Below are positions 197 to 48,616 of a stretch of 55,822 bases of DNA, piece by piece. Position 1 is the first letter of the stretch. Every line of letters starts with the position of its first letter. The notes beneath the pieces were generated by a model that was not told where the DNA came from, did not search any database, and was given only the letters and a program-made list of their open reading frames with translations. The translations under genes and the position numbers were made by a program. This stretch comes from a virus, in IMG/VR virus record IMGVR_UViG_3300047095_000877, positions 1 to 55,822 of that record. The stretch is one strand, 5' to 3'.

Positions 197-385
197 ATGA
201 ACGACATAGACCGAGACGCAGCGCTGCTGATGGCGGGCATCCTGCTGCTGCTTTGCTTGATTGCCGGTTCCGTCACCTACCTTCAGGCATCAAGCGAAGC
301 AGCAGCCTTCAATCGCCTAACCACCGGCCCCAAGGTCACCACCTGGGACGCCGTCTGGCTGGATCTGCGCGTGGAGGCTCGCTGA
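197..385 (+). CDS. Small single-pass membrane protein
   Basis: A 62-residue protein of unknown function. Residues about 10-28 form one hydrophobic helix, followed by a polar C-terminus. It is the first gene of the early operon and its stop overlaps the ATG of the RecE-like gene (TGATG). No clear Shine-Dalgarno precedes the ATG. Upstream in-frame GTG codons at 113, 143 and 149 are possible alternatives, but they would lie in or beside the palindromic operator. Its first-gene position suggests an early membrane role, but nothing more specific can be said. Confidence 0.55.
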   Translation: MNDIDRDAALLMAGILLLLCLIAGSVTYLQASSEAAAFNRLTTGPKVTTWDAVWLDLRVEAR

Positions 386-1206
386 TGGGCCTGACCAACG
401 CGGAGTACCACGCAAGACCCGAGGTCTCGAAAAGCGGGCTGGATCTGATCCGGCGTTCACCGCTGCACTACTGGAACCGCTACCTGAATCCGAACCGGAT
501 CGTGGAGCCACCGACACCGGCCATGGTGATCGGTTCGGCACTGCATGCGCGGGTGCTGGAGCCGCATCTGTTCGACGACGAGTACGTGGTCGCACCGGAG
601 GGCATCGACCGTCGCACCAAGGAGGGCAAGCTGCGGTGGGCGGACTTCGAGGCTGAAGCCGACGGCAAGACAGTCCTCAAGGCTGAGGACGCAGCTCAGA
701 TCGAAGCGATGGCCAGGGCGGTGCATAAGCACCTTGCGGCGAGCACGATCCTGCGGCTGCCTGGCAAGTGTGAGCAGTCTTACTTCTGGACGGATGAGAC
801 CACTGGTGAGGCATGCAAGTGCCGGCCGGACTGGCATAGTGACGACCGCCGCCTGATTGCCGATGTAAAGACTACCGACGACGCGAGTCCCCGTGGATTC
901 ATGCGTTCAGTGATCAAGTATCGCTACCACGTTCAGGCTGCGTTTTACAGTCAAGGCATTGGCGCAGAACAGTTTTTGTTTATTGCCGTCGAAAAGAAGC
1001 CGCCGTTTGCTGTGGCCGTGTACGCAACGCCGCCGGAGTTACTTGAGAAAGGGCTAATATACGCCGTTCAAGACCTGCGACAACTTGCCACATGCCGGGC
1101 CGAAAATCGATGGCCCGGCTACGGCGACGAAATACAGTCGCTAGTCATTCCAGACTGGCTTCAAGACGATCGTTCCGACTCCATTTCTGAAATCGAAGGT
1201 TTCTGA
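385..1206 (+). CDS. RecE-like exonuclease (PD-(D/E)XK)
   Basis: A 273-residue exonuclease of the exodeoxyribonuclease VIII/RecE type (DUF3799-like), expected to resect duplex DNA 5' to 3' so that the next gene's protein can anneal the single strands. The N-terminal SKSGLDLIRRSPLHYW segment is typical of the family. The PD-(D/E)XK core appears as RPDW followed by IADVKTT, and the RecB-family QxxxY motif as QAAFY near residue 190. It is translationally coupled on both sides: its stop overlaps the recT-like ATG. Start chosen at the ATG overlapping the preceding stop. Confidence 0.88.
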   Translation: MGLTNAEYHARPEVSKSGLDLIRRSPLHYWNRYLNPNRIVEPPTPAMVIGSALHARVLEPHLFDDEYVVAPEGIDRRTKEGKLRWADFEAEADGKTVLKAEDAAQIEAMARAVHKHLAASTILRLPGKCEQSYFWTDETTGEACKCRPDWHSDDRRLIADVKTTDDASPRGFMRSVIKYRYHVQAAFYSQGIGAEQFLFIAVEKKPPFAVAVYATPPELLEKGLIYAVQDLRQLATCRAENRWPGYGDEIQSLVIPDWLQDDRSDSISEIEGF

Positions 1207-1871
1207 TGACTACTGAAAGCACAGCACTTGCCGTTACTTCAACAGTTGACGGTGTGTTCACGGGGATTCAACAATTCGAGAATGCTCAGCGCATCGCCAA
1301 AGCATTGGCTTCGTCCGCTTTGGTACCGAAGGAATACCAAGGTCAGACCGGTCTGGCCAACACGCTGGTGGCAATGGAAATTGCCGGCCGGATGGGCCTG
1401 AGTCCACTGCAGGTGATGCAGAACCTTCACATCATTCACGGGCGTCCTAGTTGGTCGTCGCAGTTCATCATTGCGATGATCAACGGGTGCGGGCGTTTCA
1501 CGCCGCTGGACTATAACGTCAGCGGTGAGGGGGACACTTTAAGCTGCTTTGCCTACGCGACTGAGATCGCAACAGGGAAGGAGCTGCGCGGTCCTGTTGT
1601 GACCATGGCCATGGCCAAGCGTGAAGGGTGGGCAACAAAATCAGGGTCCAAGTGGCAAACAATGCCGGATCTCATGGTCCGGTATAGAGCAGCTGCGTTC
1701 TGGGGGCGTCTTTATGTTCCTGAGTTCCTGGTTGGCATGAAAACACAAGAAGAAGTCGTTGACATACAAGAAGTTGAAGTAACCGAGAAGCCGTCGATCG
1801 TGGATGATCTGAACGGCAAGATCCAGGAACAAAAGGCATCTGAGGAGGCAGGAGATGATGCAGTCTGGTGA
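1206..1871 (+). CDS. RecT-like single-strand annealing protein
   Basis: A 221-residue RecT-family recombinase that anneals complementary single-stranded DNA during phage recombination. Family-like stretches include LANTLVAMEIAGRMGLSPL (about 50-70), the WSSQFIIAMIN segment and MVRYRAAAFWGRLYVPEF near 155-175. The C-terminus is acidic and variable, as is usual. It directly follows its exonuclease partner, as in RecE/RecT and Exo/Beta pairs, and precedes SSB by two small genes. It is shorter than E. coli RecT but within the range of phage versions. Confidence 0.87.
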   Translation: MTTESTALAVTSTVDGVFTGIQQFENAQRIAKALASSALVPKEYQGQTGLANTLVAMEIAGRMGLSPLQVMQNLHIIHGRPSWSSQFIIAMINGCGRFTPLDYNVSGEGDTLSCFAYATEIATGKELRGPVVTMAMAKREGWATKSGSKWQTMPDLMVRYRAAAFWGRLYVPEFLVGMKTQEEVVDIQEVEVTEKPSIVDDLNGKIQEQKASEEAGDDAVW

Positions 1872-11759: not shown

Positions 11760-11833
11760 TGGTAGGCCCACTCGGAGTTGAACCGAGATTTGCGAATTAA
11801 AAGTTCGCCACTCTACCGTTGAGTTATGGGCCC
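11760..11833 (-). tRNA. tRNA-Lys (anticodon UUU), CCA encoded
   Basis: A full cloverleaf: a 7-bp acceptor stem (GGGCCCA with TGGGCCT, one G-U pair), D-stem ACTC/GAGT, anticodon stem GCGAA/TTCGC with loop CTTTTAA, T-stem CTCGG/CCGAG with loop TTCAACT, discriminator A and encoded CCA. It could help the phage decode AAA codons. Its position 230 bp from the integrase suggests it is also, or originally was, the attachment site. Confidence 0.93.
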
Positions 11834-12066
11834 GAAAGCTTGCGCGAATACTGCGCGAACGTGATTTCTGCTACTGCCTAACCCCTTGTTTTCACTCACA
11901 AAAATCAGCCTGATCAACTGATTAAAAGTCTCTTTCGGAAGTCTCACGCAACTTCACGCAAACTCATTAAACATCTGATTCATCAACAAGATCCGCTATT
12001 GCGTTTTTCGGCTGATTCGCGCAATTTACCGCAAATTCGCGCAAATCTGCGCGAATAGTGCGCGAA
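11834..12066. other. attP-like field of integrase arm-site repeats
   Basis: A non-coding gap between tRNA-Lys and the integrase. The 19-mer TGCGCGAATACTGCGCGAA (11841-11859) recurs at 12048-12066 with one change (C to G). Each holds two copies of the octamer TGCGCGAA. The inverse, TTCGCGCA, appears at 12016-12023 and 12036-12043. Looser CACGCAA repeats lie near 11944-11962. Repeated short sites on one side of a tRNA next to int are typical of arm-type integrase binding sites. The last copy overlaps the int leader, so it may also control int. Confidence 0.6.
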
Positions 12067-12077
12067 TGGAGGGACGC

Positions 12078-13178
12078 ATGAAACGTGAGTGGAAGCCCGA
12101 TTCAAAGGTCACCGGACTGGGCCTGCTGGTGCTGCCGAGCGGGGTCGAAACCTGGTACCTGCGCTACCGCGAACCGAGCGGCAAGCAGCAGCATCACAAG
12201 ATCGGTCGGGCTGACATCCTCAACCGCACACTGGCCCGCGAAGAGGCGCACAAGATCCTTGCCGCCGTGGCGCGTGGGCATGCACCCACCAGCGCCCGCC
12301 AGGAGCTGCGCCGCGGCCCTGACATGACCGATCTGTACCAGCGCCTGCTGGCCGAGCACTATCCCAAACTGCGGCCGGGCACGGCGAAGAACTACCAGAG
12401 CATCTGGGACGTTCACATCATCCCGAAACTGGGCCGCCAGAAGGTGCAGATGATCACCAGCGCCGACGTGATGCGGCTGCTCTCGCGCATCCGGCCCATC
12501 CAGGCCAACCGGACGCTGGCGGTGCTGCGCAAGGCGTTCAACCTGTCGATCCTGTGGGGCCTGCGAGCGGACAATCCTTGCGCCAAGGTGCCGGCCAACA
12601 CCGAGCGCAAGCGGCGGCGTTATCTGTCAGGCGAAGAGCGGCAGCGGCTGGTGGCCGCACTGGGCGCGATAGCCACCTCGCCACTGCGCTGGCGGTTCGC
12701 TCAACTGGTGCGACTGCTGATGCTGACGGGGTGCCGCGTGAGCGAAATCTGCCGTGCCAGATGGGAGTGGTTCGACGAGAAGGCAGGCTTGCTGGCGATT
12801 CCCGCCGAGCATCACAAAACTGGTGAGCACACTGGCCAAAAACGTGTAGTGCATATTCCTCCTGCAGGAATTCTCATCTTGAGAGAACTGAGACTCAGAT
12901 CGAATACACAATGGATTATCGCAGGGCAGGACGATGGCTATCTGGTGGGGTATCAGAACCTATGGGAAGAGCTGATGGTGCTTGCCGAAATCAAGGATCT
13001 CAAATGCCACGATTTGAGGCACCACTGGGCCTCGGTGGCGATCACCAAGGTCGGCCTGACGCTGCCGCAGGTCGGCAATCTGCTTGGTCACGCCAGCCCG
13101 CTGACCACCAGCCGCTATGCGCACCTGCTCGAGGATGGGGCGCAGGCTATGGCGAGGGCCGTGGCTGATCAGATCTAG
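12078..13178 (+). CDS. int: Tyrosine-type integrase 1
   Basis: A 366-residue phage integrase that would recombine attP with the host attB. The N-terminal arm-binding part has the GLGLLVLPSGVETWYLRYR fold seen in DUF4102-type integrases, followed by a core-binding helical domain (about 95-175). Catalytic residues of the family are visible: R in LMLTGCRVSEICRARW, H-x-x-R in CHDLRHHWAS, and GHASPLTTSRYAHL with the nucleophilic Tyr. The ATG at 12078 has GGAGGG 4 nt upstream; the ATG at 12066 would put the Shine-Dalgarno inside the gene, so 12078 is preferred. Confidence 0.92.
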   Translation: MKREWKPDSKVTGLGLLVLPSGVETWYLRYREPSGKQQHHKIGRADILNRTLAREEAHKILAAVARGHAPTSARQELRRGPDMTDLYQRLLAEHYPKLRPGTAKNYQSIWDVHIIPKLGRQKVQMITSADVMRLLSRIRPIQANRTLAVLRKAFNLSILWGLRADNPCAKVPANTERKRRRYLSGEERQRLVAALGAIATSPLRWRFAQLVRLLMLTGCRVSEICRARWEWFDEKAGLLAIPAEHHKTGEHTGQKRVVHIPPAGILILRELRLRSNTQWIIAGQDDGYLVGYQNLWEELMVLAEIKDLKCHDLRHHWASVAITKVGLTLPQVGNLLGHASPLTTSRYAHLLEDGAQAMARAVADQI

Positions 13179-17260: not shown

Positions 17261-18154
17261 TCAAAGCTCAGGGATTTCGTATTCCTGCGTGGTGTTGCAG
17301 TAATGCTTAAAGATAACTTCACTTGTGTTTCCTGCCCACGCTGCCACCTGTGGCACCGGAATTCCTGCCTCGATCCAGCGGCTGATCGCCGTGTGGCGAC
17401 AGTCGTACGGCCGATAAAGGTGGGAAATCAGTCCTGCCATGTGTAGCGGAGCAAGCTTCTTGCGAAAGTAGCTCTGAAATGCGAGGCGGTTCCACGGGAA
17501 GACGAACCTGTCCTCACGGGGCAGGTTTTGCAAGATCGCTTTGCACTTGGAGTTCAACGGAACCCACCGCTTCTTGTTGGTTTTCGTGCTTTCCTTCAGG
17601 CCGTGCGTCAGCGTGTAGTTGCGATGCACCAGCACTCGGCCGTCTTGGATGTCGTCCCAGCACATGGCCCGGACCTCGCCAGTGCGCATGGCGGTCTGCA
17701 GCATGAACTCTGCAAATAGCGACCAATCCACTTCGCGGTAGGTGAGCTTTGCAGTCAGTGCTGTGAGCACCAGCGCGATCTCGTGCCGAGGGATCACGGT
17801 GATCTCGCAGCTTTTCTGCGGCGCCTTGGGCATCCTGAAGTTGGCGACCGGGTTGCCGCTGATCAGGCCAACGTCTTCAGCGCACGCCCAGCGGTACATG
17901 CTGCGCACATACATGCACACGCGCCTAGCGGTGAGGATCGGCTTCTGCTGCAGCACCCAGATCAACACCTGCCGCCCTTGGGCAAGGTCTTGGATTGGGC
18001 AGCGCCCCATCCACTTCGTCACCTGCCGGTAGTCGCTAGTGAGGCTGGTGGGGCAGAGCGAGATGCTGCGCTCTTGCAAGAACATCGCCCACACTTCGGA
18101 AACTGTGTGAGCGCAAACGGGCGCAGCGGTCTGCGAGCGATAGGCTTCGGCCAT
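17261..18154 (-). CDS. Tyrosine-type integrase 2
   Basis: A 297-residue tyrosine recombinase, shorter than and unlike integrase 1. An N-terminal SAM-like domain (about 15-100) is followed by the catalytic domain: TAMRTGEVRAMCWDD with the first Arg, KRWVPLN, YDCRHTAISRW with R-H, AGNTSEVIFKHYCN with the nucleophilic Tyr. The usual first His of the HxxR box is Tyr here and the late His/Trp is Asn, yet the pattern fits active integrases known to me from cyanophages. Start at ATG 18154; an in-frame TTG lies at 18163. Confidence 0.87.
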   Translation of the reverse strand: MAEAYRSQTAAPVCAHTVSEVWAMFLQERSISLCPTSLTSDYRQVTKWMGRCPIQDLAQGRQVLIWVLQQKPILTARRVCMYVRSMYRWACAEDVGLISGNPVANFRMPKAPQKSCEITVIPRHEIALVLTALTAKLTYREVDWSLFAEFMLQTAMRTGEVRAMCWDDIQDGRVLVHRNYTLTHGLKESTKTNKKRWVPLNSKCKAILQNLPREDRFVFPWNRLAFQSYFRKKLAPLHMAGLISHLYRPYDCRHTAISRWIEAGIPVPQVAAWAGNTSEVIFKHYCNTTQEYEIPEL

Positions 18155-18252
18155 CGGGTCCAATACAGCTGGATCTGATCACGGGTCAGGCGGGTGCAAC
18201 CGCGCTGGCCCACTCCATGCCTAGCACAACGCTCGCAGCGTAGATACCGCGA

Positions 18253-44517: not shown

Positions 44518-44711
44518 TGAGAATCATTCTCAAGGACCCATTGAGAATCAATAACACTTGCAATTGAGAATCAATAAGCCAGGGCGGTGAGAATGAGAAT
44601 CATTCTCAATACCCACGGCCCTGAGAATGAGAATCATTCTCACCATTCGGCGGGCTTACAAGAATGAGAATCATTCTCACCCTGTTGCCGCTGGAATGAG
44701 AATCATTCTCA
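44518..44711. repeat. Left array of Fur/Zur-box-like palindromes
   Basis: Five perfect 7-1-7 palindromes TGAGAATCATTCTCA start at 44518, 44594, 44628, 44665 and 44697. Half-sites TGAGAATCAAT start at 44542 and 44565. The last four carry an extra GAAT or GAGAAT on the left, giving GAGAATGAGAATCATTCTC in two of them. That is the hexamer-hexamer-x-inverse hexamer plan of the E. coli Fur box (GATAATGATAATCATTATC) with three changes. Spacing is mostly 23-37 bp. A mirror array occurs at 48161-48396. Confidence 0.9.
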
Positions 44712-44785: not shown

Positions 44786-44830
44786 AATGGTGTGGGCAGT
44801 TCTGCTCACTTTCTCATCGCACCTTGAAAC

Positions 44831-44980
44831 ATGCAATCTATTGCAGACCTGTTCGCCGCTCGATTGGAAGAACTGCGCCGCATCGATGAAGAATCGAACC
44901 GCCGGACGCAAGATCTACTCAAACGGACGCGAGCATTAATTAAGGAGATCGAGGCAATTGATCTCGAGACTGAATACTGA
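44831..44980 (+). CDS. Small coiled-coil protein downstream of the left palindrome array
   Basis: A 49-residue, charged, helical protein (QSIADLFAARLEELRRIDEE, then SNRRTQDLLKRTRALIKEIE) that reads as one coiled coil. It has its own promoter (44777-44785) and a strong terminator (44984-45009), so it is a self-contained unit. No HTH is present. It may be the partner of the palindrome arrays, as an oligomerising adaptor, but that is inference only. Confidence 0.6.
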   Translation: MQSIADLFAARLEELRRIDEESNRRTQDLLKRTRALIKEIEAIDLETEY

Positions 44981-44983
44981 AAC

Positions 44984-45009
44984 GGGGGCCAATCGGCCCC
45001 CTTTTTTTT
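44984..45009 (+). terminator. Rho-independent terminator (rightward)
   Basis: GGGGGCC (44984-44990), loop AATC, GGCCCCC (44995-45001), then eight T. It begins 4 nt after the stop of the 49-residue gene. Confidence 0.92.
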
Positions 45010-45023
45010 GTACAAACTAGAAA

Positions 45024-45042
45024 GCCCGCCGAACTGGCGGGC
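45024..45042 (-). terminator. Rho-independent terminator (leftward)
   Basis: On the minus strand GCCCGCC, a 5-nt loop, GGCGGGC, then TTTCTAGTTTGT. It closes the island operon that ends with the Gp88-like gene at 45067. Back to back with the rightward terminator at 44984. Confidence 0.8.
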
Positions 45043-45066
45043 CGGTCGATCGATCGTGCGGGCGGA

Positions 45067-46134
45067 TCACGCGGGCATCAGCTGAACGATCCCGTCGGCT
45101 AGGCGAACGATCGGCGCGTTCGGCAGGATGAATCCGGCGAGCTCGGGATCTGCGCCGCGGGATCGCTTAGCCCTCAGGATCACAGCCACGCCCGCGGGAT
45201 CCTGCCACCGGTGATCCGTAGCGTCGCCGTCGACGGTCTGCAGCGCCAGGGTCTGGCCGCCGTGGCTGATCAGCACACGGGCCGGGATCGGCGCCCCCTT
45301 AGGTAGGTCGATCGGAACGGCTAGGCGGAACCCGGCGAGGGCGGCGGCGATGGCGTCGGCGGCGGCCGTCGGGCGATCGCCGGCCAGGCTGGCGGTCACG
45401 TCCCATCCGGCGTCGCGCTGAGCGATCAGACCGAGCGGGCCGCCGGTAGGCGCTTTGCTGTATTCGTACAACTCGATCGATCCGTCGGCCGTGGCCGGTG
45501 ACAGGAGCTCGGCCAGAGTCCGGCGCTCGCCGTTCGCGATCAGCAGACCGAACCGGCGCCGGATCGCGATCGCTTCAGGCAGGCTCACAGTCAACCGCCG
45601 GACGTGCCACGGTTGATCGTCGGTGCCGCGCAGCCTGACGGCGAGGGGCAGACCGTCGGCCTGGGCGCGGGCCCATTGGCGGGCGATCGCCCAGAGCATG
45701 GCCCGGCCGTACAGGGCGGGGTCGGCGATCATTGCCAGAGTCCGGCGGCCACGGGCGGCGGCCACGGCCGGTGACAGGCCGCCGTGGCCGGCCCACGCTA
45801 GGCAGGCCGACGCACAGCCTTCTGTGGCCCACGGGCAGGCATTGAACACCGACGCGGCGGCCGTCATTCCCTCGCGATCGGCGAGGGCGGCCAGGGCGGC
45901 TAGGTGCCCGCGTGGGGCCACCGTCGACCGGTTCGCGGGATCGATCGCGGCGGCCAAGGCGCGGCCTGGCAGGCCGTGATGGATCACGGCGCGGGCGATC
46001 TCAGAGCCCTTGCCTAGTTTCGGGTTGGAATCGGTGAGCACGTCGGCCAGGGTCAGGCCGAACCGGGAGAGATGGGCGGCCACGTCGGCGGGCAGGGCGA
46101 CGCGGGCGTTCGAACGGATCAGAGCAGCAGGCAT
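45067..46134 (-). CDS. Gp88-family protein
   Basis: A 355-residue member of the mycobacteriophage Gp88-like family. It has the family pattern: a TDSNPKLGKGSEIARAVIHH start, the Cys cluster FNACPWATEGCASACLAWAG at about residues 97-116, then VRLRGTDDQPWHVRR, ELYEYSKAP, and DGDATDHRWQDPAGVAVILR. No biochemical function is established for the family as far as I know. The Cys cluster suggests metal or an iron-sulphur centre. It is the last gene of the GC-rich island and carries the shared leader just before its ATG. Confidence 0.8.
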   Translation of the reverse strand: MPAALIRSNARVALPADVAAHLSRFGLTLADVLTDSNPKLGKGSEIARAVIHHGLPGRALAAAIDPANRSTVAPRGHLAALAALADREGMTAAASVFNACPWATEGCASACLAWAGHGGLSPAVAAARGRRTLAMIADPALYGRAMLWAIARQWARAQADGLPLAVRLRGTDDQPWHVRRLTVSLPEAIAIRRRFGLLIANGERRTLAELLSPATADGSIELYEYSKAPTGGPLGLIAQRDAGWDVTASLAGDRPTAAADAIAAALAGFRLAVPIDLPKGAPIPARVLISHGGQTLALQTVDGDATDHRWQDPAGVAVILRAKRSRGADPELAGFILPNAPIVRLADGIVQLMPA

Positions 46135-46153
46135 GGTGTTAGGTGCGGGGTGA

Positions 46154-46717
46154 TCAGATCAGGCGGAGAATCGCCAGCCAGGAATCGGGCGCGTCCGGCT
46201 CAACAGTTCGGCCGTCGGGCGTTTCACAGCAGGAATCCAGAGTCCAGAGATCGAGCTCGCCGTCGGTAGGCGCCGGCCAGAATTTGCCGCGCCACCAGAT
46301 CCGGCGAACGCCGCCGGCCTGATCGATCGGCAGACCGGCGCGGGCGGCGAGCTCGCAAGCGGTCTCGGTGGAATCATCGGCGGCGGGCGCCGGGGCGCGC
46401 CATGGCGCGTTGATCGACGCCACTAGGTCGGCCCATTGGCGAGCAAACGGCCAGGCGCGGGCGTCGGCCGGATCGATCAGCGCGAACCGGTGATCCCATT
46501 GGCGGGCGATCTCAGCGGCGCGCCGCTTGCTACAGAGAAGGGTCCCGGCGCTAAGGCCGGACTCCCTATGGGTGATCACCCATTGCCCCCGGCAGACCGG
46601 GAAGCGGCGGGCCGAATCGCAGGGCGGCGTGAGGGCGACCCATTGGCCCATCCAATGGGCGGGCGCCATAGCGTCGCCGGCCTTGGTGGCAACGCGGCAA
46701 AGGTGAGGGGTTGGCAT
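46154..46717 (-). CDS. Island protein, unknown
   Basis: A 187-residue protein rich in Ala, Arg, Trp and Cys. The N-terminal third has PPCDSARRFPVCRGQWVITH and LLCSKRRAAEIARQWDHRFA; the C-terminal part has RRIWWRGKFWPAPTDGE and SWLAILRLI. Cys are scattered (about nine), possibly metal-binding. I do not recognise a family. The 19-nt leader abuts its ATG, and it lies 19 nt upstream of the Gp88-like gene. Confidence 0.62.
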   Translation of the reverse strand: MPTPHLCRVATKAGDAMAPAHWMGQWVALTPPCDSARRFPVCRGQWVITHRESGLSAGTLLCSKRRAAEIARQWDHRFALIDPADARAWPFARQWADLVASINAPWRAPAPAADDSTETACELAARAGLPIDQAGGVRRIWWRGKFWPAPTDGELDLWTLDSCCETPDGRTVEPDAPDSWLAILRLI

Positions 46718-46747
46718 GGTGCTAGGTGCGATGGGAAGGGCGGCTGA

Positions 46748-46924
46748 TCAGTCGCGATCGCTGATCAGCCAATGGTCAGGCGATGGGGCGACATCGTGCC
46801 CAGCGGCCACGCGGGCCGCGTACGCGGCGAGAATCGCGGCGAGCTGATCGGCCGTGGCCGGATCGGACGCGGCAACCCAGCCGCCGGCGACGCGGCGCAA
46901 GGGCGGGCGATCGGGGCGGGTCAT
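46748..46924 (-). CDS. Island protein, small unknown
   Basis: A 58-residue protein (TRPDRPPLRRVAGGWVAASD, PATADQLAAILAAYAARVAA, GHDVAPSPDHWLISDRD). Its ATG overlaps the preceding stop (ATGA), so it is translated by coupling; it is the only island gene without the leader motif. Its helical centre and Trp residues give no clue to function. Confidence 0.58.
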   Translation of the reverse strand: MTRPDRPPLRRVAGGWVAASDPATADQLAAILAAYAARVAAGHDVAPSPDHWLISDRD

Positions 46925-47199
46925 TCAGCGGCCACGGGGTACGCGTACCGGGCGCCCGCATCAAGCGAGAGGGCGGGGCCGGCCACGGCCCACGTGACGC
47001 CCATTGCGCGGTTTGCCTTGGCCACTACGGCGGCGGCGGCCTGATCGGGGCCGTCCGCGTACGGAACGGCGGCGCGGAATCGATGGCCGGGGCCGCCGCG
47101 GTCGATCGTGGCCGCCCATTGGCTGCCGCGGCGATCAGTGGCCGGGCGGTAGCTCACCACGGCGGCGGGCACGTATCGGGCGGGATGATCCTGAGGCAT
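46921..47199 (-). CDS. Island protein, unknown
   Basis: A 92-residue protein (YVPAAVVSYRPATDRRGSQW, AATIDRGGPGHRFRAAVPYA, DQAAAAVVAKANRAMGV). The strand-helix alternation suggests a small alpha/beta domain. The leader motif (47200-47218) touches its ATG, and it is coupled to the downstream 58-residue gene. Not recognised. Confidence 0.6.
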   Translation of the reverse strand: MPQDHPARYVPAAVVSYRPATDRRGSQWAATIDRGGPGHRFRAAVPYADGPDQAAAAVVAKANRAMGVTWAVAGPALSLDAGARYAYPVAAE

Positions 47200-47231
47200 G
47201 GTGCTAGGTGCGATGGGATAGGACGCGGCGA

Positions 47232-47405
47232 TCAACGCCGGTAGCAGTGCTCAGTGGTGATACGGGCGAGGCGCGCCTCGTCTCGGCATGCCTGCAGGGC
47301 GAGGGCATCATTGATGCCTACGGTCGTAACGACAGCGAGGGCACAGGATCCGAACGCCAGACCGGCGGCGAGGGCGGCGGCGGCGGCGCGGTTCAGAAGA
47401 GACAT
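47232..47405 (-). CDS. Island protein, small membrane or exported
   Basis: A 57-residue protein. Residues 5-33 are hydrophobic (AAAAALAAGLAFGSCALAVV), preceded by a short basic start. The tail has two Cys (ACRDEARLARITTEHCYRR). It could be a single-span protein or a cleaved lipoprotein-like peptide, although a canonical lipobox is not clear. The leader motif abuts its ATG. Confidence 0.55.
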   Translation of the reverse strand: MSLLNRAAAAALAAGLAFGSCALAVVTTVGINDALALQACRDEARLARITTEHCYRR

Positions 47406-47500
47406 GGTGATAGGTGCGATGGGACGACCTTTCGGCCGTTGACGGAATTCTGCCGACGCGCCCGACCCCATCAGGGGGCGGGCGGCCGGTTCGCCGATTG

Positions 47501-47842
47501 TCACGCGGCGAGGGCGGCGATCAGATCGGCCCGGCGGCCGTACGTATACAGGCGACGCGGCAGACCGGCGGCGCGGGCGGCGGCGCGCAGTTCGGCCACG
47601 GTCTGACGGGCGGCGGGCGCGGCGGGCGCGGGCCGGTCGATTCGATCGGCGAGGGCGCGCAGGGCGGCGGCGGCGATCGGGGCCAGGTGAACGGCGAGGG
47701 CGTGGGTCACCGCGGCCACGGTCAGGGCGAGGGCGAGGGCGCGGGCGGCGGCCGCTTGCCAGTCGATCGCGCTAAGGGCGGCGATCGCATCATCAATGGG
47801 AGGGAAGGCGGGCGCCTGGGCGCGGGCAATTGCAAGGGTCAT
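47501..47842 (-). CDS. Island protein: membrane helix plus SAP-like domain
   Basis: A 113-residue protein, the first gene of the island operon. Residues about 30-65 are hydrophobic and Ala-rich (AARALALALTVAAVTHALAV). Residues about 78-113 fit the SAP/Rho-N helical fold: TVAELRAAARAAGLPRRLYT, then YGRRADLIAALAA, which often binds nucleic acids. So a membrane-tethered nucleic-acid-binding protein is possible. The start was chosen at 47842 because the leader motif abuts it; the frame stays open to 48061 but the extension looks non-coding. Confidence 0.62.
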   Translation of the reverse strand: MTLAIARAQAPAFPPIDDAIAALSAIDWQAAAARALALALTVAAVTHALAVHLAPIAAAALRALADRIDRPAPAAPAARQTVAELRAAARAAGLPRRLYTYGRRADLIAALAA

Positions 47843-48082
47843 GAGACTAGGTGCGATGGGAAACGCGGTTCGCGTTCGATATCCATGATGCCGACGGGTC
47901 GGCCCGGATCCCATAGCGTGGGGCCGGTTCGCGGATTGGCCTAGTTGCCATCGGCGCGGCGCCCCTTGCGACCGTGCCAGAGCACCTAGGTAACGGGCCG
48001 GCCTGGCCGCCCCATATATAAGGTCAGCGCCGATCGAACCGCGGCGCACCGGACGCGGCACCCGTCAGCTGATCACACAACG

Positions 48083-48159
48083 ACATCGTTATAGTGTTTT
48101 GCCGTTATAGCGGCTGATCTTATAACGGCATCGTTATACTGTTTTGCTGTTGGCTGATC
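48083..48159. repeat. CGTTATA repeat field
   Basis: Two imperfect repeats of about 35-40 bp (48083-48119 and 48126-48159, offset 45) share CATCGTTATA, TGTTTTGC and GGCTGATC. They contain CGTTATA at 48087, 48103 and 48132 and its inverse at 48121. TATAACGgcatCGTTATA (48121-48138) is an exact dyad. On the minus strand these supply TATAAC boxes, so they may hold promoters or operators for the island operon. Confidence 0.65.
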
Positions 48160-48160
48160 G

Positions 48161-48396
48161 TGAGAATCATTATCGTTCTCGGTCAACCGTGAGAATGATT
48201 CTCATTCCTGGTCGGCCGTGAGAATGATTCTCATTCCGCTGCAATTGAGAATCAGTCGCAACTAGGCCCGTGAGAACGATTCTCATTCCCACTAGGTAGG
48301 TGATATTGAGAATCATTCTCAAGTCAGGATCTGCTGACATCGCCCTATTGAGAATGATTCTCATTATCGGCAGGCGGTATTGAGAATGAGTCGCAA
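48161..48396. repeat. Right array of Fur/Zur-box-like palindromes (mirror of the left array)
   Basis: Eight units start at 48161, 48190, 48219, 48246, 48271, 48307, 48349 and 48381. Units 48190, 48219 and 48349 are exact TGAGAATGATTCTCA, 48307 is TGAGAATCATTCTCA, 48271 has one change, and the others are degenerate. The extra hexamer is now on the right (GATTCTCATTC), the reverse complement of the left array, so the arrays face each other. Unit spacing is 25-42 bp. Confidence 0.9.
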
Positions 48397-48428
48397 TTGC
48401 AGTCAAAACACGAAAACAGGAGGGTCAA

Positions 48429-48545
48429 AAAACACCCCTTATAAACCGTCGATGCCCGAGTCCCTAATTTTTTTGAACGGCCAGGAGCTTTAGAAAACAC
48501 CCCTATTAAGCCTCGAATGCGCAGGTCCCTAAATTTTTCGATGGC
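48429..48545. repeat. Imperfect 65-bp tandem repeat with A/T tracts
   Basis: AAAACACCCCT occurs at 48429 and 48494. Each copy is followed by a TTATAAA- or ATTAAG-type block, then GTCCCTAA plus a run of 5-7 T. The T-runs could end transcripts or unwind DNA. The GTCCCTA element recurs at 50866 beside the primase gene. There is no supported gene from 47862 to 48616. Confidence 0.65.
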
Positions 48546-48616
48546 CTGCGGTAGGATTTTTGTGCCCCGGCGAGCCGCAAACTCCCGAGGCGTGATCAAC
48601 CCGCAAACCCAGGCTG

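Follow-up and report, generated by a model that had tools for sequence, protein, structure and literature searches.

Five genes of one operon in a putative cyanophage genome share a 19-nt leader that directly abuts their start codons. Across related phages, the position of this leader is fixed and its sequence is nearly private to each phage lineage. The explanation we favour, with a probability of about 0.6, is that the block is a translation leader independent of the Shine-Dalgarno (SD) sequence, uniform within a phage and doubling as a fixed joint for the exchange of ORFs. The window, i.e. the whole stretch of DNA that was analysed, spans 55,822 bases and corresponds to one IMG/VR virus record.

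The window encodes a lambda-type portal, a terminase, a head protein and tail proteins, together with two integrases, an exonuclease VIII-like protein, a RecT-like protein, a helicase and a primase. At the portal protein, identity is 52% with Synechococcus phage S-LBS1 and 50-51% with S-CBS1 and S-CBS3. S-LBS1 also ranked first amongst the terminase matches by coverage and identity, with Roseobacter phages about equal in score. Since these structural proteins are closest to those of Synechococcus phages, the window most likely represents a temperate siphovirus of Synechococcus-type cyanobacteria. The two integrase-family genes (12066-13178, plus strand; 17261-18163, minus strand) lie approximately 4 kb apart, near a tRNA gene (11763-11833); one tRNA was the sole match in an RNA-family search of the window. 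The leaders belong to a six-gene operon on the minus strand, the short ORFs of which are predictions from sequence and the last gene of which belongs to the GP88 family (PF17338).

A 19-mer scan of both strands, allowing up to 3 mismatches, found exactly four copies of TCCCATCGCACCTAGCACC in the window, all on the minus strand and each abutting an ATG (Table 1). The chance expectation was 0.03 copies and none of 100 shuffled sequences reached four. An earlier, sequence-only reading of this DNA had described five genes with a shared 19-nt leader touching the ATG, which is borne out by these four copies and a weaker fifth. The latter, the most divergent of the operon leaders in the window, makes up the entire 19-nt gap between the stop codon of gene E and the ATG of the GP88 gene. 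That reading was also right that one copy sits inside a 32-nt gap, which separates the genes starting at 47405 and 47199, and that a leader is absent from the gene starting at 46924, whose start overlaps the stop codon before it (ATGA). Its statement that the five leader-bearing genes lack an SD likewise agrees with our calculation, in which anti-SD pairing was absent in all five (mean duplex energy +1.6 kcal/mol). It had missed the SDs of other genes in the window and a further copy of the core on the plus strand. This copy (CATCGCACCT, 44815-44824) lies six bases 5′ of the ATG at 44831, and orthologues of the 49-aa gene that starts there, in relatives L006 and L008, have the related sequences CATTGCACTT and CGTTGCACTT ahead of their starts.

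Table 1. Leaders, operon genes and other features of the window, with positions counted along the whole record.
Feature	Position	Strand	Description
Leader of gene A	47843-47861	-	TCCCATCGCACCTAGTCTC; 3 mismatches, all within the final 4 bases; core CATCGCACCTAG intact
Leader of gene B	47406-47424	-	TCCCATCGCACCTATCACC; 1 mismatch
Leader of gene C	47200-47218	-	Exact, 0 mismatches
Leader of gene E	46718-46736	-	Exact, 0 mismatches
Leader of gene F	46135-46153	-	TCACCCCGCACCTAACACC; weaker; repeat family, 83% identity
Sixth, weaker leader-like copy	44812-44830	+	TCTCATCGCACCTTGAAAC; inverted-repeat matches; precedes the 49-aa gene at 44831-44980
Gene A	47501-47842	-	113 aa; orthologues 81-90% identical in L006 and L008
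Gene B	47232-47405	-	57 aa; unrelated ORFs in the same slot of L006 and L008
Gene C	46921-47199	-	92 aa; an unrelated 76-aa gene instead in L006 and L008
Gene D	46748-46924	-	58 aa; no leader; ATGA overlap with the gene C stop codon
Gene E	46154-46717	-	187 aa
Gene F	45067-46134	-	355 aa; GP88 family PF17338 (42.4 bits, cut-off 24.4); phrog_1617
Terminator-like hairpin 3′ of gene F	45023-45043	-	8-pair stem, T-rich tail; weak (2 found, 1.7 expected)
Exonuclease VIII-like and RecT-like single-strand annealing genes	253-1871	+	Same phage
Fur-box-like palindrome array	48161-48397		Eight copies, TGAGAATCATTCTCA type; upstream of the operon
Second palindrome array	44518-44711		Five perfect copies of TGAGAATCATTCTCA; beyond the operon end

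The block has two sharp edges. For a hand-picked set of genes, agreement amongst copies from the same phage was 0.51-0.91 per position from -19 to -1, falling to background at -20 and past the start codon; the lock to the start codon also holds at a GTG start in one relative. A loose core common to the family, YATYGCWY, peaked at -16/-15 with 23 hits, compared to approximately 1 at any other position; a further search of the retrieved loci for patterns yielded nothing. The leaders are composed of 44% C, 28% T, 19% A and 9% G (72% pyrimidine), and their predicted unpaired probability is 0.52-0.78, compared to 0.31-0.53 for the sequence upstream. No anti-SD pairing was found in any of 43 operon leaders from ten phages (mean +1.5 kcal/mol), whereas an SD precedes 14 of the 24 other genes of the window; in S-LBS1 the figure is 19 of 45 genes. 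Where starts were defined by homology, 2/22 operon starts had an SD, compared to 19/50 others (P = 0.013).

In several places a stable predicted hairpin abuts the open leader on its 5′ side (L006 8650-8716, L009 9570-9643, L042 8770-8832; also L057 2690-2741 and 3622-3682, and 46740-46780 in the window). Ahead of gene B a short-loop stem, ACGGCC-GAAC-GGTCGT, occurs in L006, and ACGGCC-GAAA-GGTCGT can be written in the window. The hairpin was considered as part of a general element and set aside, being present ahead of gene B in some relatives and of a few other genes, not of all. At small genes of the more distant relatives L011 (7402-7470) and L046 (5270-5300 and 5550-5580), a short GC-rich stretch (GGGCCGCGAGGCCC, GCGCGAGCC) is followed by a C/T tract and then the ATG. 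These GC-rich leader starts could form a hairpin and are perhaps another repeated start-associated design.

The edges and composition bear on whether each copy could instead be the promoter of a leaderless mRNA starting at the ATG. A conserved block ahead of each gene does resemble the intergenic repeats of halovirus HF2 (PMC8707807), which are likewise viral, lie ahead of genes and keep their position amongst relatives, and leaderless mRNAs are thought likely in Prochlorococcus (PMC5607370). However, the HF2 repeats are 29 or 58 bp long, AT-rich, of proven promoter activity and from a virus of an archaeal host, whilst the block here is C-rich. Moreover, its conservation stops at -19, which leaves no possibility of a shared -35 region, and no sigma-70-like site was found within 45000-48600, -10 and -35 hexamers placed for a start at the ATG being likewise absent. 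Nor did the window include a recognisable phage RNA polymerase or sigma factor, though coverage of its proteins is incomplete, and the block varies in sequence between phages of apparently similar hosts. Judged from these sequence features, a promoter at each ATG is unlikely, and it is the reading to which we give the least weight.

A GP88 profile search recovered 47 loci; all relatives are metagenomic. When 2.9 million viral contigs were scanned for exact matches to CATCGCACCTANCACCATG, one further contig (L005/L008) was recovered, with the same operon and the same leaders. In relatives down to approximately 50% GP88 identity, this position is occupied by another leader, which recurs within their own operon: CCCATCGCATCCATTCC in L009, CCCTTTATCCTTTCCTGCC in L030, TTACCTGTTGCCTGCC in L007 with a near match in L032, a CTTACCACTTGCCTGCC-like sequence in L031, CCCCTATTTCAAA in L042 and CCTTTCCTTTCCTGAAACC in L057. 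Exact scans of the same 2.9 million contigs confined the L030 and L057 leaders to their own contigs, where they occur three and two times, respectively. L007 is a weaker case, with a close match in just two of five leaders. A scan of genome contigs found a single relative, L029, on a contig binned as Gammaproteobacteria. Named phages gave no DNA match to the region, their GP88 proteins being distant ones from mycobacteriophages and a pelagiphage, and no relatives were found on plasmids. The sequence-only reading had held that an absence of conservation beyond this locus would count against it. The exact sequence is indeed nearly private to the phage group, but the same type of block recurs with another sequence in divergent relatives.

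Two tests addressed this pattern statistically. In one, with no genes chosen by hand, every ATG ORF of 40 aa or more that lies upstream of GP88 was taken from 34 loci, and pairs of upstream 16-mers with at least 13 agreeing positions were counted; 22 matching pairs were found at the ATG, compared to 0-1 in seven controls shifted by 20 to 100 bases. The other used 43 operon genes from ten phages, a set picked partly by eye, and gave a leader similarity within phages of 12.96/18, against 9.91/18 when leaders were dealt randomly among the phages (0/5000 deals reached the observed value). No such effect existed at -64 to -41. In 92 of 112 comparisons, the leader of a gene was closer to those of neighbouring genes in its phage than to the leader of its orthologue in another phage. 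Within a phage the leaders of unrelated genes agree, whilst between phages the leaders of orthologues differ.

A closer inspection of near relatives revealed that genes have been replaced behind the leader. The slot past gene A is filled by three unrelated ORFs in the window, L008 and L006, the GP88 proteins of which are 91-94% identical. When the window is aligned with L008, the match is close through the last part of gene A, the intergenic DNA and the leader as far as the ATG, and nothing convincing aligns beyond it. At the next slot, the leader of gene C and about a dozen bases 5′ of it form an island of similarity with unrelated genes on both sides. Orthologues of gene B in L007 and L032 have the leaders of those phages and not that of the window. 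The leader is therefore retained with its upstream DNA whilst the ORF behind it changes, and it seems, from these alignments, to be a fixed 5′ joint for ORF exchange. RecE/RecT-type recombinases drive gene shuffling in temperate phages via short homologies (PMC3945230); since such enzymes act over short homologies, the RecE/RecT-type genes of this phage are, by analogy, a plausible agent of the exchange. In an integron gene cassette, a palindromic attC site follows each ORF and an integron integrase is present; here, the block lies 5′ of the ORF, the repeat analysis did not list it as itself an inverted repeat, and the integrases match general phage integrase families.

Combining these observations, the leader would be a piece of mRNA, rich in C/T, poor in G and largely unpaired, that adjoins the start codon on its 5′ side; in place of SD pairing, the host ribosome may start there by an S1-type or low-structure route. 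The operon would probably be read from upstream as one mRNA, with every gene not coupled by overlap having its own copy. The copies would stay alike inside each phage and drift between phages, and the leader would remain while ORFs are exchanged behind it, serving the gene slots as a fixed 5′ joint, perhaps through recombination of the RecE/RecT type. The uniformity of the copies within a phage may have been produced by recombination at the leaders as ORFs were exchanged, or it may be kept up because selection favours a common signal. Position, edges, SD absence, predicted openness, uniformity within phages, divergence between phages and swaps behind a retained leader were all computed here.

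There is precedent for such initiation. According to the account given in PMC5607370, rbcS of Synechococcus is translated by SD-independent, S1-dependent initiation (Mutsuda and Sugiura 2006), and pyrimidine-rich tracts are abundant 5′ of starts in Prochlorococcus (PMC5607370). Low structure permits initiation without an SD and is a general requirement (PMC3121790). Leaders of this kind in cyanobacteria share with the block the lack of an SD, the pyrimidine richness and an open stretch before the start; however, they are single genes or a genome-wide tendency with no conserved sequence (PMC5607370, PMC3121790), whereas here each phage has a defined 19-nt repeat. As the passages of PMC3121790 on SD-less starts as a class report no conserved motif, the repeated sequence is the unusual part. 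Known SD-less initiation requires no specific sequence, which counts against our explanation in so far as translation alone is then insufficient to account for identity within phages and difference between them. Also against it, ordinary gene conversion would usually need a repeat longer than 19 bp, the L007 match is partial and the gene F leader is the weakest in the window.

The same abundance of pyrimidine-rich sequence in Prochlorococcus speaks for another account, in which the leader has no function of its own, its C/T richness is that of a normal SD-less host leader and its repetition is a by-product of recent duplication or insertion at short repeats. SD-less leaders richer in pyrimidines do occur elsewhere in the related phages, and the way the slots are built implies that recombination occurs at the leader. 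However, most of the genes that follow the copies are unrelated to one another and so are not duplicates, the block has the same two edges in independent phages, and its presence in phages at 50-70% GP88 identity indicates that it is maintained and not recent. We consider this account improbable.

Another reading takes the leader as the address of a phage-specific trans factor, a protein or a small RNA, that switches translation of the operon and co-evolves with it, hence the privacy. Privacy and uniformity within phages are what a co-evolving recognition site would be expected to show, and the core at -16/-15 is shared more distantly. Nevertheless, the window proteins that were searched, many of them without a known family, yielded no candidate for an RNA-binding regulator. 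Antisense matches to the leader were restricted, leader copies aside, to isolated stretches of 9-10 nt in the window, giving no obvious phage sRNA; the antisense reading was rejected, no complementary match exceeding 10 nt. A trans factor is thus doubtful. The sequence-only reading had offered a translational element, as a protein or sRNA target, or a gene-cassette joint. Its translational and joint aspects fit, in that the block keeps a fixed place at the start codon, has no SD, should be largely unpaired according to prediction, and is kept when the gene is replaced; its protein or sRNA target found no candidate. A more speculative extension, which we put forward tentatively, is that the leader is a private translation address: the 19 nt would mark genes of the accessory operon, a phage-specific factor or mechanism would read it, and any incoming ORF placed behind it would gain the same control at once.

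For the SD-independent leader that we favour, the nearest known precedent is found in cluster K mycobacteriophages, in their Start-Associated Sequences, or SAS (Pope et al. 2011, PMC3203893; see also PMC12699233). Both are short, non-palindromic repeats just 5′ of the starts, mostly ATG, of a subset of unrelated, non-structural genes, and for both a role in translation is proposed. However, SAS have the sequence GGGATAGGAGCCC, contain an SD (AGGAG) and lie 3-7 bp from the start, whereas the cyanophage block has no SD and abuts the start codon. SAS are spread over half the genome and have one consensus across the cluster, whilst the block is confined to one operon plus one weaker adjacent copy and varies from phage to phage. 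With up to 2 mismatches, GGGATAGGAGCCC had four matches in the window against 1.3 expected, none of them at operon starts. Placement before the starts of unrelated genes is thus found in both, whilst the SAS consensus, the SD content and spacing, and a consensus shared between phages are not found here. Because the placement is the same but these three defining features fail, the block is, judged by its sequence, a variant of start-associated sequences and not a member of SAS. Our literature search found no paper joining start-associated sequences with cyanophages. At the module joints of lambdoid phages, short conserved boundary sequences lie at gene borders and are usable as recombination joints. 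They are not known to us to be private to individual phages, or to recur ahead of each gene in a single operon.

Other repeats flank the operon. The TGAGAATCATTCTCA palindrome occurs at 13 sites in the window (29 strand matches, 1.2 expected), and Fur-like boxes lie near the operon in relatives (L006 11458-11506, L008 11422-11617, L011 8914, L012 581). The arrays are possibly operators for a host regulator, or a decoy. One or more copies of AGTACATTTGTACT, which we take to resemble cyanobacterial LexA boxes, are found upstream of the GP88 operon in many relatives (L006 7914-8007, L008 7924-8041, L030 7570, L009 8662, L011 8941 and L060 4458-4541). The window lacks AGTACATTTGTACT and instead has more Fur-like boxes and a TATAACGNNNNCGTTATA palindrome. 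Two 60-nt repeats of the AGGGACTCGGGCATCGACGGTTTATAAGGGGTGTTTT type lie upstream of the operon in the window (48417-48541, minus strand), with similar ones in the same place in L006, L008 and L009. The GP88 protein (45067-46134) contains the invariant motif NxCPWAxxGCxxxCL, which reads NACPWATEGCASACL in the window. Its predicted model, built from 24 sequences, has a mean pLDDT of 85.9 and matched no fold amongst solved structures (best E 0.15), nor was there a match by sequence profile. As the model is confident and has no significant match to a solved structure, the protein may have a new fold.

It has been known since 2011 that phages carry start-associated repeats, the function of which is unexplained. 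Here, the sequence varies by phage whilst position and uniformity within a phage are constant, and so the effect of sequence can be separated from that of position. This bears on how cyanobacterial ribosomes choose a start without SD pairing, and on how temperate phages bring newly acquired genes under existing control. If the private address were true, it would amount to plug-in gene acquisition without a site-specific recombinase.
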